Below are positions 3,350 to 11,304 of a stretch of 64,000 nucleotides of DNA, piece after piece. Position numbers and translations under genes: made by a program. This DNA is from an uncultured Alphaproteobacteria bacterium (GTDB lineage Bacteria > Pseudomonadota > Alphaproteobacteria > Micropepsales > Micropepsaceae). The stretch lies in NCBI GenBank assembly GCA_903897605.1, contig CAIUCH010000055.1, forward strand, positions 1 through 64,000, given 5' to 3'. Every line of letters starts with the position of its first letter. Positions within the stretch are counted from its first letter, which is position 1. The notes beneath the pieces are model-generated. The model made no database searches. It saw nothing but the letters and a program-made list of their open reading frames with translations, and had not been told where the DNA came from.

Positions 3350-3658
3350 TCAGGCCGTGGCGCGGTCCCGATAGATCATCCAGATGTTGCGGGCATAGAT
3401 CGGCAGCGGCAGGCCTTGGCCGAACACCAGCGCCCAGGCTTGCTGATGGATCACATAGGAAAAACTGAAAAGCCCGCCGACCAGGCTGCAATACCAGAAC
3501 GAGATCGGAATGACGCTGTGGCCTTGCTGCTCGCTCTTCAGCCATTGGATCAGCATGCGAACGCCGAAGATCGCCTGGCCGCCAAAGCCAATTAGATTCC
3601 ACAGCACATCGTAAGGATGCGCGAGCGCCATGTTATAGGCGTGGGCCATGAATCCCAT
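3350..3658 (-). CDS. LAB_N domain membrane protein (lipid A biosynthesis N-terminal domain)
   Basis: A 102-residue protein with about three membrane segments and the LAB_N motifs Q-W-L-K-S-E and P-I-S-F-W-Y-C-S-L-V-G-G. In some bacteria this domain is fused to the N-terminus of LpxB; in many alphaproteobacteria it stands alone beside a GT2 and an ArnT-like transferase, as here. It probably supports membrane-lipid glycosylation, for example as a small membrane partner or flippase-like subunit; that role is inferred from context. Its ATG directly follows the stop codon of the GT2 gene, so the two are co-transcribed and likely coupled. Confidence 0.8.
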   Translation of the reverse strand: MGFMAHAYNMALAHPYDVLWNLIGFGGQAIFGVRMLIQWLKSEQQGHSVIPISFWYCSLVGGLFSFSYVIHQQAWALVFGQGLPLPIYARNIWMIYRDRATA

Positions 3659-4372
3659 TCAGATTTCCTCGATCTTGGAAGGGCCGCCATGGCGGCGCTG
3701 CAGCCAGCGCACGCCCAGCATATCGTAGATGCTGACAAGCGTGCGGCCCAGATTGGTGTATTTGGAATGGCCCGCCAGCCTGGGCCGGTGATTGACGGGA
3801 ACATAGGCGACCTTCCAGCCGTCCCGCTGCACCAGCGCGATCAGATAGCGGTGCATGTGATCGAAATAGGGGAAGGCGATGAACGCGTCGCGGCGGATCG
3901 CTTTCAGTCCGCAGCCCGAATCGGTGGCGCCGTCGCCCAGCATCGCGCTGCGCAAACTGTTGGCCAGGCGGGAGGCGACGCGGCGGCTGGCGGTGTCCTG
4001 TCGCTTGACCCTGACGCCCGAGACCAGGCCCAGGGCCGGATCGGCGCGCAGGACCTTGAGCAGCGCCGGGATGTCGGCGGGATCGTTCTGGCCGTCGCCG
4101 TCCAGAGTGACGATGATGTCGCCCCTGGCCGCTTGAACCCCGCTGAAGATGCCACGGCTCTGGCCCAGATTGCGGCCGTGGCGCAGGGGGCGAAAATGGG
4201 GAATCTCGCTTTTGAGCGCCGCCAGTTTTGCGATCGTGCCGTCGTTCGAACCGTCATCGATGAAGATGATCTCATGGTCCGGCTCGGACTTCAGCGCGGA
4301 CGCAATCTCGCGGGCGAGGGCGCCGACATTCTCCGCCTCGTCCTTGACCGGCACCACCACTGAAACCGTCAT
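3659..4372 (-). CDS. Glycosyltransferase family 2, polyprenyl-phosphate sugar synthase type (DPM1-like)
   Basis: A 237-residue GT-A enzyme. It has the opening V-S-V-V-V-P-V-K-D-E-A-E-N strand, D-D-G-S-N-D-G-T, and the metal-binding T-L-D-G-D-G-Q-N-D-P. Later features typical of dolichyl/undecaprenyl-phosphate hexose synthases are G-C-G-L-K-A-I-R-R and H-R-P-R-L-A-G-H-S-K-Y. It likely charges a polyprenyl phosphate with a sugar that the divergent ArnT-like enzyme transfers to lipid A or another envelope acceptor. The C-terminal membrane helices of ArnC are absent. The ATG at 4372 is preferred over a TTG nine codons upstream because the conserved domain starts at once. Confidence 0.85.
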   Translation of the reverse strand: MTVSVVVPVKDEAENVGALAREIASALKSEPDHEIIFIDDGSNDGTIAKLAALKSEIPHFRPLRHGRNLGQSRGIFSGVQAARGDIIVTLDGDGQNDPADIPALLKVLRADPALGLVSGVRVKRQDTASRRVASRLANSLRSAMLGDGATDSGCGLKAIRRDAFIAFPYFDHMHRYLIALVQRDGWKVAYVPVNHRPRLAGHSKYTNLGRTLVSIYDMLGVRWLQRRHGGPSKIEEI

Positions 4373-4495
4373 GAGCAACCCTGCATCGCGATTTCCCAAA
4401 ATCCCGGCGCTTGGTTAAAAAGGGCGCCGGCGGTCCTCGATGTGGCGCGCCTTATACAGGCCCCGGCGGGTCCAAGAAACAGGGCATTCAAGCCG

Positions 4496-6388
4496 ATGAG
4501 TGACGCCGAGCCCCTCGCGGTTCCGCCGCCGCCCACGCCCAAGCGGGCCAGGATCGGTGCCTGGCTGGTGCGATTCGCCTATCCATTGCTGGCGGTCCTC
4601 TGCCTGATGTTGTGGTTACCGGGGGTTCTCAGCCTGCCGGCGCTGGACCGCGACGAAAGCCGCTTTGCCCAATCCTCGCGCCAGATGCTGGACAGCGGAA
4701 ATTTTGTGGATATCCGCTTCGGCAATGTGCCGCGCTACAAAAAGCCGGCCGGGATCTATTGGGCCCAGGCCCTGACCACGGCGGTGGCGGGGCATATCCA
4801 GAACATCGAAGGCGATCACAGCCAGATCTGGACATATCGCCTGCCATCGCTGTTGGGCGGGATCGCGGCGGTGTGGCTCACTTTCTGGCTGGGCTCGGCC
4901 TTCAGTGCCGAGGTGGGCCTTGTGGCGGCCTTGCTGTTGGGCTTCTCGGTGCTGCTGACGGCCGAGGCCACCATCGCCACCACCGACGCGGTGCTGCTGG
5001 CCTCGATCCTGGGCGCGCAAGGCGTGCTGATGCGGATTTATCGCGCGGCCAAGGACGGCGAACCGGTTTCCACCCGCATGCTGCTGTGCGGCTGGGCCGC
5101 ATTCGCCATCGCGATATTGGTGAAGGGTCCGGTGGCGGTCGGCGTGGTCGGTGCGACCATTGTCGCGCTCCTGGCATGGGACGGCTGGGACGCATGGCGC
5201 GCGGCGCCCGCGCCAACACCCGCGCCTGCAGCCGAAGGCGCGGCACCGGCGGTGACGAAAGGCACGGTGAGGGTGCAAGTCCGGGCGCAAGTGCGGGCGC
5301 TGATGCACAAGCTTTCGATCGATGCGCGCTGGCTCGCGATGGCCCGCCCGCTCTTGGGCGTGCCGCTGGTACTGCTGATCGTGGCGCCCTGGCTGATCGC
5401 GATCTGGATCCAGAGCCATGGCACCTTCTTCCAGCAATCCCTGGGCAATGATTTCGCCGCCAAGCTGGCGGGCGGGCAGGAGAGCCATGGCGCCCCGCCG
5501 GGCTATAATCTTGTCTTCTCGGCGTTGCTATTCTGGCCCGGGATTCTTTTTGTGCTGCCGGGGATCGGGCTTGGCATCGCGCGGGCGAAGGAGCCGGCGA
5601 TCCGTTTCCTGCTGGCCTGGGCCGGCGCCTGGTGGCTGGTCTGCGAGGCGGTGCCGACCAAGCTGCCGCATTATGTACTGCCGGCCTATCCGGCATTGGC
5701 GATCCTGGCGGCGCTCTGGCTGCTCGCGCCGAAGGAGGAAACCCTCCCGCTCTGGCGGCGCATCTTGCCCTATATTGCGTCGTTGCAATTCCTGATCGGC
5801 CTGGCGGCGCTGACGGCCGCGCCGATCCTGTTGCCCCGGTTTTATGGCGGCGGCGATGTCACCAGTTTGCTGGTCTATGTCATCGTCGCGGGCCTGATCG
5901 GATTGGGTGCTTTGTATATGGCCCTGACCGGCGCCCGGCTGATCGGCATGAGCCTGGCCTTCGCGGCGCTGTTGATTTTCGTGCCCGTCCTGACGGTCGC
6001 CACCGGCCCGCATCTGACCCAGCTGTGGATGAGCGAGCGTATTGCGGCGCTGGTCGCCAAGGATGCCGATCCTTCCGATCCGCCCCCGGCCCTGGCCGGA
6101 TTCGAAGAGCCCAGCCTGATGTTCGCGCTGGGCGCCGACATCAACCTGACCGACGGCGCCGGCGCCGCCAAGCAGGGCGCCAATCTGGGCGGCTTGGCGC
6201 TGGTGGACGATTATGAGCGCCCCGCCTTCCTCGCGCATCTGGCCGAACTTCAGTCCGATGCGGTGCCGCTGAACGATGTCTCGGGCTTCAATTATTCACG
6301 CGGCAAGACGGTCCATGTCACGATCTATCGCATGCGCAAGCTGACCTATGACGTGCCGCCGCCGCATGTGACGACGCGCTTTCCATAG
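4496..6388 (+). CDS. ArnT-like glycosyltransferase (GT39/GT83 family, inner membrane)
   Basis: About 630 residues with a dozen hydrophobic segments. The first periplasmic loop has the ArnT/PMT signature D-R-D-E-S-R-F-A-Q, with the catalytic-type acidic pair, followed by Y-K-K-P-A-G-I-Y-W. These enzymes use undecaprenyl-phosphate sugars to modify lipid A or proteins on the periplasmic face. The divergent GT2/LAB_N pair probably makes its donor. An insert of about 30 Ala/Pro-rich residues near 250 is unusual. A GTG at 4442 would add 18 residues; the ATG at 4496 is chosen because the extra stretch is not hydrophobic and has no clear ribosome site. Confidence 0.85.
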   Translation: MSDAEPLAVPPPPTPKRARIGAWLVRFAYPLLAVLCLMLWLPGVLSLPALDRDESRFAQSSRQMLDSGNFVDIRFGNVPRYKKPAGIYWAQALTTAVAGHIQNIEGDHSQIWTYRLPSLLGGIAAVWLTFWLGSAFSAEVGLVAALLLGFSVLLTAEATIATTDAVLLASILGAQGVLMRIYRAAKDGEPVSTRMLLCGWAAFAIAILVKGPVAVGVVGATIVALLAWDGWDAWRAAPAPTPAPAAEGAAPAVTKGTVRVQVRAQVRALMHKLSIDARWLAMARPLLGVPLVLLIVAPWLIAIWIQSHGTFFQQSLGNDFAAKLAGGQESHGAPPGYNLVFSALLFWPGILFVLPGIGLGIARAKEPAIRFLLAWAGAWWLVCEAVPTKLPHYVLPAYPALAILAALWLLAPKEETLPLWRRILPYIASLQFLIGLAALTAAPILLPRFYGGGDVTSLLVYVIVAGLIGLGALYMALTGARLIGMSLAFAALLIFVPVLTVATGPHLTQLWMSERIAALVAKDADPSDPPPALAGFEEPSLMFALGADINLTDGAGAAKQGANLGGLALVDDYERPAFLAHLAELQSDAVPLNDVSGFNYSRGKTVHVTIYRMRKLTYDVPPPHVTTRFP

Positions 6389-6521: not shown

Positions 6522-7810
6522 ATGAGACGCCAGATGGGTCTTCAGATAGCGCGGGGCCGCGCAATCAAAACGGCCACGCGCTCGTTCCGAAACAGTTCGG
6601 ATGATGCCGCCCGCGCCCCTGTTGCCAAACTCAATCTGCCGGGGCCCAAGGCGGATCTGCGCTTTCCCATAGGCCAGGCGGCACGGGCCTTTTACCGCCG
6701 CTTCTGGCCGGGCACTGGTCCGGCCGAATGGAATGACTGGCGCTGGCAGATGCGGGCGCGCATCCGCACCTTGGAGGAGCTGGCCCGCATCTTCCGCTTG
6801 TCGGAAGATGAATACGCCGCCGTCGCCCGCCACCAGGGTGCGCTGCCGGTTGGGATTACGCCGTATTATGCCAGCCTGATGGGGCTGACGGATGCGAGTG
6901 AACCCTTGCGCCGCACCCACATCATGACCGGGGACGAATATCTGCGCGGCCCCGGCGAGGACGACGATCCCCTCAGCGAAGACCATGACACGGTGGCGCC
7001 GGGGCTGGTGCATCGCTATCCCGACCGGGTGCTGTTTCTCACCACCGGCACCTGCTCGACCTATTGCCGCTACTGCACCCGCTCGCGGCTGGTGGGCAAT
7101 CCGGGCGGCGAATATCATTTCTCCACCCGCCAATGGGGCGAGGCCATCGCCTATCTGGAAGCCCATACCGAAGTGCGCGATGTGCTGCTGTCGGGCGGCG
7201 ATCCCCTGACCCTGTCGGATGACAAGCTGGATTGGCTGCTGGGGCGGCTGCGGGCGATTCCGCACATCGAATTCCTGCGCATCGGCACCAAGATGCCGGT
7301 GGTGACGCCGCAGCGCGTGACAAGGGGCCTGGTCCGGGTGCTCAAGAAACATCACCCCTTGTGGATGAGCCTGCATTTCACCCATCCCGCCGAACTGACC
7401 CGCGAAGTGACCGAGGCCACCGCCCGCTTGGCGGATGCCGGTGTGCCCTTGGGCAGCCAGACCGTGCTGCTTAAGGATGTCAATGACGATGCCGATGTCA
7501 TGACCCAGCTGATGCATGGGCTGCTGAAGAACCGGGTGAAGCCTTATACCTCTATCAATGCGATCCCATCCGGGGTTCGGCGCATTTCCGCACCGGGGTG
7601 GACAAGGGGCTTGAGATCATTCGGGCCCTGCGCGGCCACACCACCGGCTATGCCACGCCGATCTTTGTGATCGATGCGCCCGGCGGCGGCGGCAAGATCC
7701 AGCTGGCGCCCGATCCGGTGGCGGGACGCGATGGCGATTTCCTGCTGCTGAAGAATTTCGAAGGCGATATCTATCGCTATCCGGATCCCAACGGTTCACT
7801 CGGCCGCTAG
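6522..7810 (+). pseudogene. kamA: KamA-family lysine 2,3-aminomutase (radical SAM, PLP), frameshifted as given
   Basis: The first frame encodes the radical SAM barrel with the [4Fe-4S] motif C-S-T-Y-C-R-Y-C (Cys178, 182, 185) and the family run V-L-L-S-G-G-D-P-L. Near 7546-7550 one T is missing, so K-P-Y-Y-L-Y-Q-C-D is broken. The other frame continues without loss to 7810 with H-F-R-T, G-H-T-T-G-Y and D-A-P-G-G-G-G-K. The PLP lysine (P-G-G-G-G-K) and the two Asp residues that bind the lysine side chain in clostridial LAM (in Q-C-D and D-A-P-G) lie after the break. The truncated product would be inactive; the restored one looks lysine-specific. This is either a sequencing error or a recent mutation. 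It is the first gene of an overlapping set running to 11304, three bases before the next ORF. Confidence 0.85.
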
Positions 7811-7813
7811 AAA

Positions 7814-8797
7814 ATGCGCATTGGGGTCACCTATGACCTGCGCAGCGATTACCGCGCCTTGGGATATGGCGAGGAAGAGACCGCCGAATTCGATGCCGAG
7901 GAAACCATCGCCGCCGTCTGCGGCGCACTGGCCGAGCTGGGTCATGAGCCCGAGCGCATCGGCGGCATCCGGCCCTTGACGGAAAAACTGGCTGGGGGCG
8001 CGCGCTGGGATGCGGTGTTCAACATCTGCGAGGGCCTCAAGGGCGTCTCCCGCGAAGCCCAGGTGCCCGCGCTGCTGGAAGCCTATGACATTCCCTATGT
8101 CTTCTCCGATCCGCTGACCTTGGCGCTATGTCTGGACAAGGCGATGACCAAGCGGGTGTTGCGCGATGCCGGCGTGCCCACCGCCGCATTTGCCCTGATC
8201 GAAGGCGAAGCCGACATCGCCAATATCGCGCTGGAATTTCCGTTATTCCTCAAACCGGTCTCGGAAGGTTCGGGCAAGGGAGTGGATGCGCATTCGCGGG
8301 TCACGGACCGTGAAAACCTAGCGCGGGTGGCGCGCGATCTTCTGGCCCGCTTTCGCCAGCCCGTATTGGTGGAGGAATTCCTGCCCGGCCGCGAATTCAC
8401 GGTCGGCATCACCGGCACCGGCGACAGCGCCTCGGTGTTGGGGATCATCGAGATCGTGCCGGGCGAGAACTATGTCGGCCATGGTTATGGCTATGAGAAC
8501 AAATCCGACTGGGAGGACAAGCTCGCCGTGGTTCCCGCCAATGATAGCGAAGCACAGGCGGCGGGCGCTGTGGCATTGGCGGCCTGGCGGGTGCTGCGCT
8601 GCCGCGACGGCGGGCGCGCGGATATCCGGCTGGACCGCGACGGCATGCCCCGCTTCATCGAGGTCAATCCGCTGGCGGGCATCCGGCCCGGTTATTCGGA
8701 CCTTTGCTTCATCGCCGATTACCAGAAGCTCGGCTATCGCGACCTGATCGGCAAGTTTGTGGAATCCTTTCTGGCGCGGCATCCTGGGCTGAGATGA
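7814..8797 (+). CDS. ATP-grasp ligase, D-Ala-D-Ala ligase-like (first of two)
   Basis: A 327-residue ATP-grasp enzyme. The N-terminal domain starts M-R-I-G-V-T-Y-D-L; then come the P-loop-like P-V-S-E-G-S-G-K-G-V (near 155-165), E-E-F-L-P-G-R-E-F-T-V-G, and the Mg-binding C-terminal motif F-I-E-V-N-P-L-A-G-I. It resembles D-alanine-D-alanine ligases but departs from the Ddl core, so a different amine-acid or dipeptide product is likely. Its stop overlaps the next start as ATGA (8794-8797), indicating translational coupling. It starts three bases after kamA, which makes a beta-lysine or other aminomutase product a plausible substrate (inference). Confidence 0.85.
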   Translation: MRIGVTYDLRSDYRALGYGEEETAEFDAEETIAAVCGALAELGHEPERIGGIRPLTEKLAGGARWDAVFNICEGLKGVSREAQVPALLEAYDIPYVFSDPLTLALCLDKAMTKRVLRDAGVPTAAFALIEGEADIANIALEFPLFLKPVSEGSGKGVDAHSRVTDRENLARVARDLLARFRQPVLVEEFLPGREFTVGITGTGDSASVLGIIEIVPGENYVGHGYGYENKSDWEDKLAVVPANDSEAQAAGAVALAAWRVLRCRDGGRADIRLDRDGMPRFIEVNPLAGIRPGYSDLCFIADYQKLGYRDLIGKFVESFLARHPGLR

Positions 8798-9747
8798 AAA
8801 TCCTGGTGCTGCATTCCGACATCGCGGCCAATGCGCCGCCCGAAGAGCTGGACACGCTGATCGCCGCCGAGGCGGTGGCCACGGTGCTGGCCTCGCGCGG
8901 CCATGCGGTCGAGCAGGCGGCCTTCCGGCAGGAGAGTTTGAAAGAGCTCCTGGCGCGCAGCGCGCCGGACATCGTCTTCAATCTGGTCGAAGGGGTGCAT
9001 GGCCAGGGACGGTTGGCTCCCCTGGCGCCCGAAATGCTGGCCGCGCTGGGGGTGCGTTTCACCGGCGTCAGCGCCAAGGCGATGGCCGTCACCAACGACA
9101 AGCCTCTGACCAAGCGGATGCTGCGCGAGGCTGGGCTCGCCACGCCGGGCTGGGCGGCGCCACCGGACTGGTCGGGGCTGGATGGCGGCCAATGGATCGT
9201 CAAATCCGCACTGGAAGATGCCTCGCTGGGATTGGACGATGGCTGCGTGGTCCAGGGCCCGCAGGTGCTGGCGCGGGCCGCCGCCTCCGCCGCCAAATTC
9301 GGAGGCAGCTGGTTCGCGGAGCGCTATGTCGAAGGCCGGGAGTTCAACATCGCGGTGCTGGGTTCCAAGGACTCCTGGCAGGTGCTGCCGATGGCGGAGA
9401 TGCGGTTCGAGCAATGGCCGGCTGGCAAGCCCCGCATCGTCGGCTATGACGCCAAATGGGAAGAGGATTCCAGCGGCTGGCGCGGAACGGTGCGCGTCTT
9501 CGGCGTCGAGCAGGGCGAGCCCGCGCTGGCGGCGAAGTTGAAATCCGCCTGCGATCAGGTCTGGCGGCTGTTCGCGCTGTCCGGCTTCGCGCGGGTGGAT
9601 TTTCGGGTGGCGGAAGACGGCACGCCGCTGATCCTGGAGATCAACACCAATCCCTGTATCTCGCCCGATGCCGGCTTCGCGGCGGCGGCACAGGAAGCGG
9701 GCCTCAGCTATGACGCGCTGATCGAAGCCATTGTCAGGGCGGCATGA
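8794..9747 (+). CDS. ATP-grasp ligase, D-Ala-D-Ala ligase-like (second of two)
   Basis: A 317-residue ATP-grasp protein only distantly similar to its neighbour, so this is not a recent duplication. It shows F-N-L-V-E-G-V-H-G (near 70), A-E-R-Y-V-E-G-R-E-F-N-I-A-V (near 175), and F-A-R-V-D-F-R-V with L-E-I-N-T-N-P-C at the metal site. The start at 8794 overlaps the upstream stop by four bases; a longer reading from 8704 would begin inside the previous gene. Its own stop overlaps the next start, again ATGA. Two ligases in a row suggest two successive ATP-dependent condensations, for instance to a short peptide. Confidence 0.85.
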   Translation: MKILVLHSDIAANAPPEELDTLIAAEAVATVLASRGHAVEQAAFRQESLKELLARSAPDIVFNLVEGVHGQGRLAPLAPEMLAALGVRFTGVSAKAMAVTNDKPLTKRMLREAGLATPGWAAPPDWSGLDGGQWIVKSALEDASLGLDDGCVVQGPQVLARAAASAAKFGGSWFAERYVEGREFNIAVLGSKDSWQVLPMAEMRFEQWPAGKPRIVGYDAKWEEDSSGWRGTVRVFGVEQGEPALAAKLKSACDQVWRLFALSGFARVDFRVAEDGTPLILEINTNPCISPDAGFAAAAQEAGLSYDALIEAIVRAA

Positions 9748-10328
9748 TCCTGGTCCTGGACGCGGAATATGAATGCGCCCTGGGCGGCCCGGTGTTGCGG
9801 GCGGTCGATCCCAATATTTTTACCCTGCGCTATTTCACCCATTGCATGACCTGCGGCTTCTGCAAGGACGCTTGCTGCGATCACGGCGTGGACATCGACC
9901 TGGGCAACGCCGCGCGGCTGCGCGATCTGCCCCAGGATTTTTACGACCGCATTGGTGCGCCGTCCAACGAATGGTTCACCGCCGAAGTGATGCGCGACGC
10001 GGAATTTCCCGGCGGCGCGCATGTGCGCACCAATGTCCGTGACGGGGCCTGCATTTTCCGCAACCAAGCCGCGCGCGGCTGCGCCATCCACGCCTATTGC
10101 CTGGAACAGGGGCTGGACTACCATCTGCTCAAACCGATGGTGAGTGTGTTGTTTCCCGTGACGTTCGAGCAAGGCGTGCTGACCGCAGCGGGCGAAGCGG
10201 CGGATGGCAGCCTGGTGTGCGGCGGCGGCGGTCCTAGCCTCTATGACGGGGCACGCGATGAGCTGCGCTATTATTTCGGCCCCGGCTTGATCTGCGAACT
10301 GGATGAATTGAAGGCGAGCTATGATTGA
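9744..10328 (+). CDS. Cysteine-cluster protein (YkgJ/UPF0153-like)
   Basis: A 194-residue protein. Cysteines at 34, 37, 40, 44 and 45 (H-C-M-T-C-G-F-C-K-D-A-C-C) and later in D-G-A-C-I-F and R-G-C-A-I-H-A-Y-C resemble the Fe-S or Zn clusters of YkgJ-type proteins. That assignment rests on spacing only; the substrate or cofactor is unknown. It is coupled to the second ligase by an ATGA overlap and shares eight bases with the dehydratase gene. In this operon it may be a redox or maturation partner for the radical SAM enzyme, or a separate metal-dependent enzyme. Confidence 0.65.
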   Translation: MILVLDAEYECALGGPVLRAVDPNIFTLRYFTHCMTCGFCKDACCDHGVDIDLGNAARLRDLPQDFYDRIGAPSNEWFTAEVMRDAEFPGGAHVRTNVRDGACIFRNQAARGCAIHAYCLEQGLDYHLLKPMVSVLFPVTFEQGVLTAAGEAADGSLVCGGGGPSLYDGARDELRYYFGPGLICELDELKASYD

Positions 10329-11304
10329 AGTCCCCAGTTTCGCGGATGTCCAGGCAGCGGCAAAGCGCATCGCGCCTTATGCGGTCCGCACGCCCCTGGT
10401 GGAAAGTCCGGTCTTGAATCCGCTGACCGGCGGACGGGTTTTTCTCAAGCTGGAAAGCCTGCAGCGCACCGGCTCGTTCAAGTTTCGCGGCGCCTGCAAT
10501 CGCATTTTGATGATACCGGAGGCCGAACGCGCCAAAGGCGTGGTGGCGTTCTCCTCCGGCAATCATGCCCAGGGCGTGGCGGCGGCGGCGCAGATCTTCG
10601 GTATCCCCGCCCTGATCGTGATGCCCACTGACGCGCCCCGCGCCAAAGTCGAAGGCACCCGCGCCTATGGGGCGGAGATTGTCTCCTATGACCGGGTGCG
10701 CGACGACCGCGAAGCAATCGCGGCGCGGATCTGCGCCGAGCGCGGCGCCACCTTGGTCAGACCCTATGACGATCCCGGCGTGATGGCGGGGCAAGGCACC
10801 ATAGGTCTTGAGATCGCCGAGGACGCGGCGCGGTTCGGCGTGACATTGGATGCGGTGGCGACACCCTGTTCCGGCGGCGGGCTGGTGTCGGGTGTGGCGC
10901 TGGCGCTGAGGGGCGCAGGGGTGACCGCGCCGGTGCACAGCGTCGAGCCGGAGAATTTCGACGGCATGAGGCGTTCGCTGGCGGCGCATGCGCGAACCTC
11001 GGCGCCTGGCGGAAAACTTTCCATCGCCGATGCGCTGATGGCGCCGGTGCCGGGTCATCATGTCTTTGCCCTGGCCGATGGCCTGCTAGGGCCCGGCATC
11101 GCGGTCAGCGACGAGGAGCTTTCCCGCGCCGTGGCCTTCGCCGCCCTCAAGCTCAAATTGCTGGTCGAGCCGGGCGGCACCGCCGCGCTGGCGGCGCTGC
11201 TGGCGGGCAAGCTGCAAGGCAAGAACCTGGCGCTGGTGATTTCCGGCGGCAATGCCGACTTCGCCAGCGTCACCGAGGCCGTGGCCCAGCACGCGCACAA
11301 ATAG
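10321..11304 (+). CDS. Threonine/serine dehydratase-like PLP enzyme (fold type II)
   Basis: A 327-residue fold-type II PLP enzyme. The PLP lysine is in G-S-F-K-F-R-G-A (near residue 60). S-S-G-N-H-A-Q-G binds the substrate carboxylate, and P-C-S-G-G-G-L-V-S-G binds the PLP phosphate. It has no C-terminal ACT regulatory domain, so it resembles catabolic threonine dehydratases and serine racemases rather than biosynthetic IlvA. It overlaps the cysteine-cluster gene by eight bases. Its place at the end of the kamA/ATP-grasp set suggests it supplies or removes an amino acid in that pathway, though it could be an independent threonine deaminase. Confidence 0.85.
   Translation: MIEVPSFADVQAAAKRIAPYAVRTPLVESPVLNPLTGGRVFLKLESLQRTGSFKFRGACNRILMIPEAERAKGVVAFSSGNHAQGVAAAAQIFGIPALIVMPTDAPRAKVEGTRAYGAEIVSYDRVRDDREAIAARICAERGATLVRPYDDPGVMAGQGTIGLEIAEDAARFGVTLDAVATPCSGGGLVSGVALALRGAGVTAPVHSVEPENFDGMRRSLAAHARTSAPGGKLSIADALMAPVPGHHVFALADGLLGPGIAVSDEELSRAVAFAALKLKLLVEPGGTAALAALLAGKLQGKNLALVISGGNADFASVTEAVAQHAHK

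Follow-up and report, generated by a model that had tools for sequence, protein, structure and literature searches.

A conserved cassette of kamA and ATP-grasp ligase genes as a candidate module for beta-lysine ligation

What might a lysine aminomutase homologue and two ligases make when their genes lie side by side, and do these genes belong together at all? We addressed these questions at a run of tightly packed genes in an uncultured alphaproteobacterium of the family Micropepsaceae (GCA_903897605.1), whose genome is a 2.79-Mb draft assembly of 60 contigs, 95.8% complete. The window, the whole stretch of DNA analysed, comprises the first 64,000 nucleotides of contig 55 (CAIUCH010000055.1). 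An initial annotation had described five genes there, kamA, two ATP-grasp ligase genes (lig1 and lig2), a cysteine-cluster gene (cys) and a dehydratase-like gene (palp), spaced by 3, -4, -4 and -8 bases. The coordinates bear this out: all five genes lie on the plus strand, the kamA stop codon (7808-7810) is followed after 3 bases by the lig1 ATG at 7814, and the next three junctions overlap by 4, 4 and 8 bases. We find that the cassette is real, widely conserved and apparently undescribed. Judged from sequence comparison and structure prediction, kamA-lig1-lig2-cys is probably an accessory biosynthetic module in which beta-lysine would be made, ligated by the lig1 product and built on by the lig2 product.

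Conservation and borders of the cassette

We surveyed 60 congeneric genomes, the window's own included. kamA and lig2 occur in 45 of them and lig1 in 44, and all three are absent from 15. In the odd genome (G043), 112 bases separate kamA from the start of its contig, and lig2, truncated at its 5' end, is on another contig. The region was fetched from 40 of the other 43 lig1-bearing congeners; lig2 is present in all 40, although contig ends truncate it in two, and kamA in all 40 in whole or in part, with cys present in 25 and palp in 23. Distances among KamA and among Lig1 proteins are correlated over 44 loci (r 0.84; 0 of 5000 permutations), to which vertical descent contributes.

The arrangement extends far beyond the genus. 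A lig1 scan using one genome per species found 349 loci; the 80 most similar to lig1 were kept (the named loci). In all 72 of the 72 named loci that have 1.5 kb or more of sequence before lig1, kamA precedes lig1 on the same strand by no more than 2.5 kb, and it is likewise upstream in all 11 further Pseudomonadota loci fetched (83/83 in total). The space between the two genes is at most 300 bases in 79 of the 83, and 483-1148 bases in L137, L138, L141 and L185. At L138, from Kiritimatiellae, the space holds a 149-aa open reading frame (ORF; 7497-7943) whose product, by reading, resembles a 23S rRNA intervening-sequence protein of the four-helix-bundle type. lig2 follows lig1 in 72 of the 76 named loci that have 1.1 kb or more of downstream sequence and in 5 of the 10 further Pseudomonadota loci in which it could be assessed, and it is absent from two Kiritimatiellae loci and one Bacillota locus. 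Since kamA is always upstream and mostly close by, and lig2 is missing from several loci, kamA-lig1 forms the core and lig2 is not obligatory.

Of 398 genomes sampled across the phylum, lig1 is found in 20 at E 1e-50 or better, the window's own and 19 outside its class. Record titles of the named loci span Alphaproteobacteria, Bacteroidales, Deltaproteobacteria, Desulfobulbaceae, Acidobacteria, Kiritimatiellae and one Bacillota; since many of these records are metagenome bins, individual taxon labels may be in error. A lig1 tree of 48 rows falls mostly into group-wise clades, with Bacteroidota in two, and 25 of its 45 inner branches are well supported. The named type strain Rhizomicrobium electricum DSM 21034 (L096) also carries the cassette, which places its product within reach. 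Together, the conserved neighbourhood and the co-occurrence in congeners and distant loci show that these genes are adjacent beyond chance. We found no description of the cassette in the literature, judged by titles and abstract openings of top-ranked matches, with subscription papers mostly outside the scope; a two- to four-gene module kept in such distant groups points to a metabolite without a description in the literature searched.

The expected five-gene order held elsewhere for kamA-lig1-lig2 and failed for palp (10321..11304, plus strand), which encodes a threonine/serine dehydratase-like fold-II pyridoxal phosphate (PLP) enzyme (PF00291, 247 bits) nearest to threo-3-hydroxyaspartate and threonine ammonia-lyase models, yet below both cut-offs. 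The overlap of cys with palp is real in the window and was seen in just 4 of the 40 congener loci. palp occurs in 42 of the 60 genomes, 29 of the 45 with the block and 13 of the 15 without it. We compared empty sites by fetching the palp region of 7 of these 13. In 5 of the 7, by alignment, the PMT-type glycosyltransferase-like gene that stands upstream of kamA here and forms the left border of the module (4442..6388, plus strand; PF02366, PF13231) ends 9-32 bases before palp; in the other two it lies outside the fetched stretch. With the glycosyltransferase-like gene abutting palp at these five sites, the variable block is kamA-lig1-lig2-cys. The module here is therefore of four genes and not five, and the pattern is compatible with gain as well as with loss. 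The dehydratase-like gene, previously taken for a pathway member, is rejected as such on these grounds and is a mere neighbour.

The fourth gene, cys (9744..10328, plus strand), is linked to the cassette within the genus, being present in 30 of the 45 cassette-bearing and none of the 15 cassette-less congeners. Its product carries a C-x2-C-x2-C-x3-CC cluster and had no match in Pfam or NCBIfam and nothing convincing in a profile search of PDB sequences. The predicted structure has a pLDDT of 85, falling below 50 at residues 33-40, within the cysteine cluster, and fold comparison gave a best PDB match of E 0.96, with none at 0.001. The CxxCxxCC (YkgJ-type) family PF03692 does not match the window protein, and matches a relative at L128 weakly (24.3 bits, cut-off 23), as does DUF3109.

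KamA and the two ligases

Model searches confirmed the families first assigned to these genes: a radical S-adenosylmethionine (SAM) domain with LAM_C (KamA subfamily TIGR00238), two Dala_Dala_lig_C domains and PALP. For kamA, the assigned family and stop position stood, and the single open frame did not. The N-terminal part (6522..7547, plus strand), in the frame of the ATG at 6522, holds the radical SAM domain with its CxxxCxxC motif; searched as 6522-7568 it matches PF04055 at 6e-12 and TIGR03820 with 330 bits, and it is 89-91% identical to three intact relatives. This frame is good to about 7547 and then reads on to a stop at 7670. The remainder, the C-terminal part (7550..7810, plus strand), lies in a second frame and reads YQCD ... 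DAPGGGGK, including the PLP lysine; searched as 7571-7807 it matches PF12544 at 1e-19. For both parts the best model match is lysine 2,3-aminomutase (LAM).

Compared with relatives L074, L075 and L077, where both parts are in frame, one base is absent from the window kamA at 7547-7550. An internal stop is absent from 38 of the 39 congener kamA genes read, the exception being L051 with one. Past the shift, changed codons are synonymous in 17 of 20, 18 of 23 and 19 of 22 cases against the three intact relatives, which points to a mistake in the assembly or to a break of very recent origin. The one-base deletion could instead mark a true pseudogene in a module decaying in this genome. We consider this possible but doubtful, given the purifying selection still apparent on codons past the shift, the open frames of lig1, lig2 and cys, and the draft state of the assembly.

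An intact KamA relative (L034) aligns with the lysine 2,3-aminomutase 2A5H across 360 residues and keeps R134, D293, D330 and K337, which we take to be lysine-binding residues of 2A5H (positions counted by hand in the alignment). The equivalents of Asp293 and Asp330, presumably the contacts for the lysine side chain, are both found in this relative, are at least 90% conserved and are both readable in the shifted part of the window gene. The LAM_C domain is incomplete in the window, with model positions 1-58 of 127 covered, and the NCBIfam lysine 2,3-aminomutase equivalog, which has a cut-off of 525, gives 456 and 494 bits for two intact relatives. We rejected EpmB as the identity of the cassette KamA: the window N-terminal part scores 213 bits and two intact relatives 252 and 256 against a cut-off of 369, and the epmA-linked aminomutase is a separate gene, itself matching TIGR03822.

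lig1 (7814..8797, plus strand; PF07478 7e-23), the constant partner of kamA, and lig2 (8794..9747, plus strand; PF07478 2e-23) both encode ATP-grasp ligases like D-Ala-D-Ala ligase (Ddl), and the two proteins are 27% identical to one another. The AlphaFold model of Lig1 (pLDDT 91.9) resembles Ddl-type structures in all 50 PDB matches listed (TM 0.66-0.82). Against a Ddl cut-off of 243 bits, however, Lig1 scores 138 and Lig2 114, and both fall under every Ddl cut-off listed. The genome's own Ddl scores 398, passes the Ddl models that Lig1 and Lig2 fail, and sits in a murD-ftsW-murG-murC-murB-ddl-ftsQ-ftsA-ftsZ run (Ddl by model match, gene names by reading). PF13535 has no match in this genome.

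In what we take to be E. coli Ddl numbering, Lig1 keeps E15, K97, K144, K215, R255, D257, E270, N272 and S281 in 21 of 21 aligned rows. Lig2 keeps K97, K144, K215, R255, D257 and N272 in 33 of 33, with E270 in 28 and Asp in the other 5. Presumably Glu15 serves the first amino group, and Arg255 and Ser281 the second carboxylate. The pocket differs. In Lig1, His63 is replaced by Glu and Leu282 by Asp in each of the 21 rows, and Tyr216 is never Tyr; a HMMER alignment with Ddl gives the identical pairing at 63, 281 and 282. In Lig2, His63 is replaced by Glu, Tyr216 by Trp and Leu282 by Gly in 33 of 33 rows, and Ser281 is absent in 27 of 33. By our own residue matching, and as far as the consulted part of the report goes, the corresponding residues of Burkholderia Ddl contact D-Ala-D-Ala or are key to catalysis (PMC6899670). 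We therefore reject ordinary Ddl function for both ligases, on their scores, the replaced D-Ala pocket residues and the Ddl encoded elsewhere. The same evidence upholds the first description of the set as a beta-lysine enzyme with a pair of ATP-grasp ligases that are not ordinary Ddl.

Proposed pathway and competing explanations

In the pathway that we propose, KamA, with its radical SAM and PLP chemistry, would convert L-lysine to beta-lysine. Lig1 would then activate a carboxylate as an acyl phosphate and couple it to an amino acid, beta-lysine being one of the partners. From the kept and changed residues of Lig1 and its Ddl-type fold model, we infer that it ligates amino acids and that one partner is basic, beta-lysine being the simplest choice. 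The invariant Glu for His63 and Asp for Leu282 would fit a basic partner, which favours beta-lysine as the nucleophile. Lig2 would extend or modify the Lig1 product, and the end product may be a peptide.

Partner genes in other groups suggest further steps. The cassette had been considered within alphaproteobacteria; it occurs in other groups as well, with acetyltransferase and deacetylase-like partners. Among the 28 named loci outside the genus in which this could be assessed, a GNAT gene lies downstream of lig2 in 26 and an HDAC-type protein gene in 7 (profiles built from these same loci; with Pfam, three of the GNAT genes and two genes combining HDAC and GNAT domains were confirmed). In Bacterium HR40 and deltaproteobacterial bins an HDAC-type domain is fused to GNAT domains directly after the cassette (L127:9972-12251, L143:10449-12200). 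This pattern suggests that an amine is acetylated and perhaps deprotected. GNAT is downstream in 8 of 41 Rhizomicrobium-group loci and 4 of 10 further Pseudomonadota loci. After lig2, 46 Rhizomicrobium-group loci have cys (27), GNAT (9) or neither (10, two cut by contig ends), never both; at L119-L123 and L128 (strain SO-S41), six loci of alphaproteobacteria from beyond the genus, GNAT is followed by cys. The window module holds no GNAT, and neither a close homologue nor AblB was found in its genome.

Several points weigh against the proposed pathway. kamA is frameshifted in this very assembly, the named loci are the best 80 of 349 by similarity to lig1, and lig2 is absent from the loci named above. 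The pocket argument depends on sequence alignment, and which substrate Leu282 faces is presumed. GNAT, missing from the window module, is infrequent both in the Rhizomicrobium group and in the further Pseudomonadota.

The closeness of KamA to AblA (TIGR03820) and the downstream GNAT of most outgroup loci could also indicate a variant of the AblA-AblB pathway to the compatible solute N-acetyl-beta-lysine, with the ligases incidental. We find this very unlikely, because the ligases are more constant than GNAT, and of three outgroup GNATs scanned one matches AblB at all, with 21 bits against a cut-off of 205; AblB had no match anywhere in the window's own genome, and the module here holds no GNAT. 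The Ddl fold of Lig1 and its E15, R255 and S281, by which both substrates may be amino acids, would suit ligases that alter cell-wall or lipid-linked peptides, as a Van-like Ddl variant with beta-lysine as the terminal residue. This too is unlikely: Ddl pocket residues are changed in both ligases, we noticed nothing resembling MurF or VanX among the module's genes, and 15 of the 60 congeners live without it. ATP-grasp enzymes are known elsewhere to ligate amino acids to proteins or peptide tags, and the target of beta-lysine ligation might be a protein or a ribosomally made peptide tag. It seems quite improbable here, since the residues for a free carboxylate are kept in Lig1, and the flanks of the block showed no conserved gene resembling one for a small precursor (ORFs below 70-90 amino acids would escape notice).

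The genome also has a separate set of efp, epmA, a major facilitator superfamily gene and an aminomutase (EF-P, EpmA and TIGR03822 confirmed by models), and thus holds both aminomutases. Congeners differ: the EpmB-type gene was found in 41 of 60 and not in 19 (drafts among them). All 19 carry the cassette kamA (G011 as fragments only) and EpmA is kept in 18; the EpmB-type gene is present in each of the 15 genomes without the cassette, and no congener lacks both aminomutases. The surroundings of epmA in 15 of the 19 hold no epmB, and the EF-P PGKG loop is present in the 14 of 14 with efp on the stretch. EpmA without EpmB was read at congener loci L193-L210, beside the window genome's own set (L003; contig 52, 3000-12000). 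Such congeners offer a sharp test of whether the beta-lysine of EF-P can stem from a metabolic enzyme, and the cassette KamA may feed EF-P too. That its main role is to supply EpmA in place of the EpmB-type enzyme is nevertheless highly doubtful. The ligases are as tightly tied to kamA as kamA to the ligases, and the window genome has both enzymes. In a quick tree of EpmA from 58 genomes, EpmB shows no fewer than 7 changes and the cassette no fewer than 4, yet supported independent pairs come to just 2 and 3, too few to assess the association. Stereochemistry differs as well, with (S)-beta-lysine from classical LAM and (R)-beta-lysine from YjeK/EpmB in the part of the source consulted (PMC2821294).

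The proposed ligation module is our preferred reading. More tentatively, and with considerable doubt, kamA-lig1 may be the core of an undescribed cross-phylum pathway that yields beta-lysine dipeptides through a ligase of the Ddl fold whose partner pocket is acidic; free (S)-beta-lysine from this pathway would also have displaced EpmB in several lineages, EF-P then carrying operon-made beta-lysine.

Surroundings and known systems

Beside the module, window positions 3350-6388 encode a Lipid A N-terminal-domain protein, a family 2 glycosyltransferase and the PMT-like protein; the latter two genes also stand beside palp in 5 of the 7 module-less congeners checked. In 23 of the 80 named loci a gene family represented by an EamA transporter is found close to the cassette, on the opposite strand, and 12 loci have a CorA family in the vicinity; we assign neither a role. 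An Rfam scan of the window found no known RNA family near kamA, the single match being a tRNA-Ser (GGA) at 770-859 on the minus strand, the sole RNA gene found.

Known systems resemble the cassette in part. The cassette KamA shares with KamA/AblA (PDB 2A5H) the radical SAM core, the PLP lysine and, in the intact relative, both side-chain Asp residues, but it lacks most of the C-terminal LAM_C region, scores below the equivalog cut-off and is partnered by a ligase, whereas AblA is partnered by AblB. Lig1 and Lig2 share with Ddl the ATP-grasp fold and the ATP and metal residues, so that acyl-phosphate chemistry is expected; they differ in pocket and loop residues, in scores and in lying outside the mur/fts cluster. 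As in EF-P beta-lysylation by EpmA and EpmB, a KamA-family enzyme would make beta-lysine and an ATP-driven ligation would follow, yet the ligase is ATP-grasp, EpmA is a LysRS paralogue, and the genome has a separate EF-P set. A further parallel is found in pathways that make dipeptides or amides without non-ribosomal peptide synthetases, such as those of the phosphonoalamides and E-64, which likewise use stand-alone ATP-grasp ligases in small pathways; among those listed, and going by titles and abstract openings, none joins such a ligase with a lysine aminomutase, as the kamA-lig1 core does.

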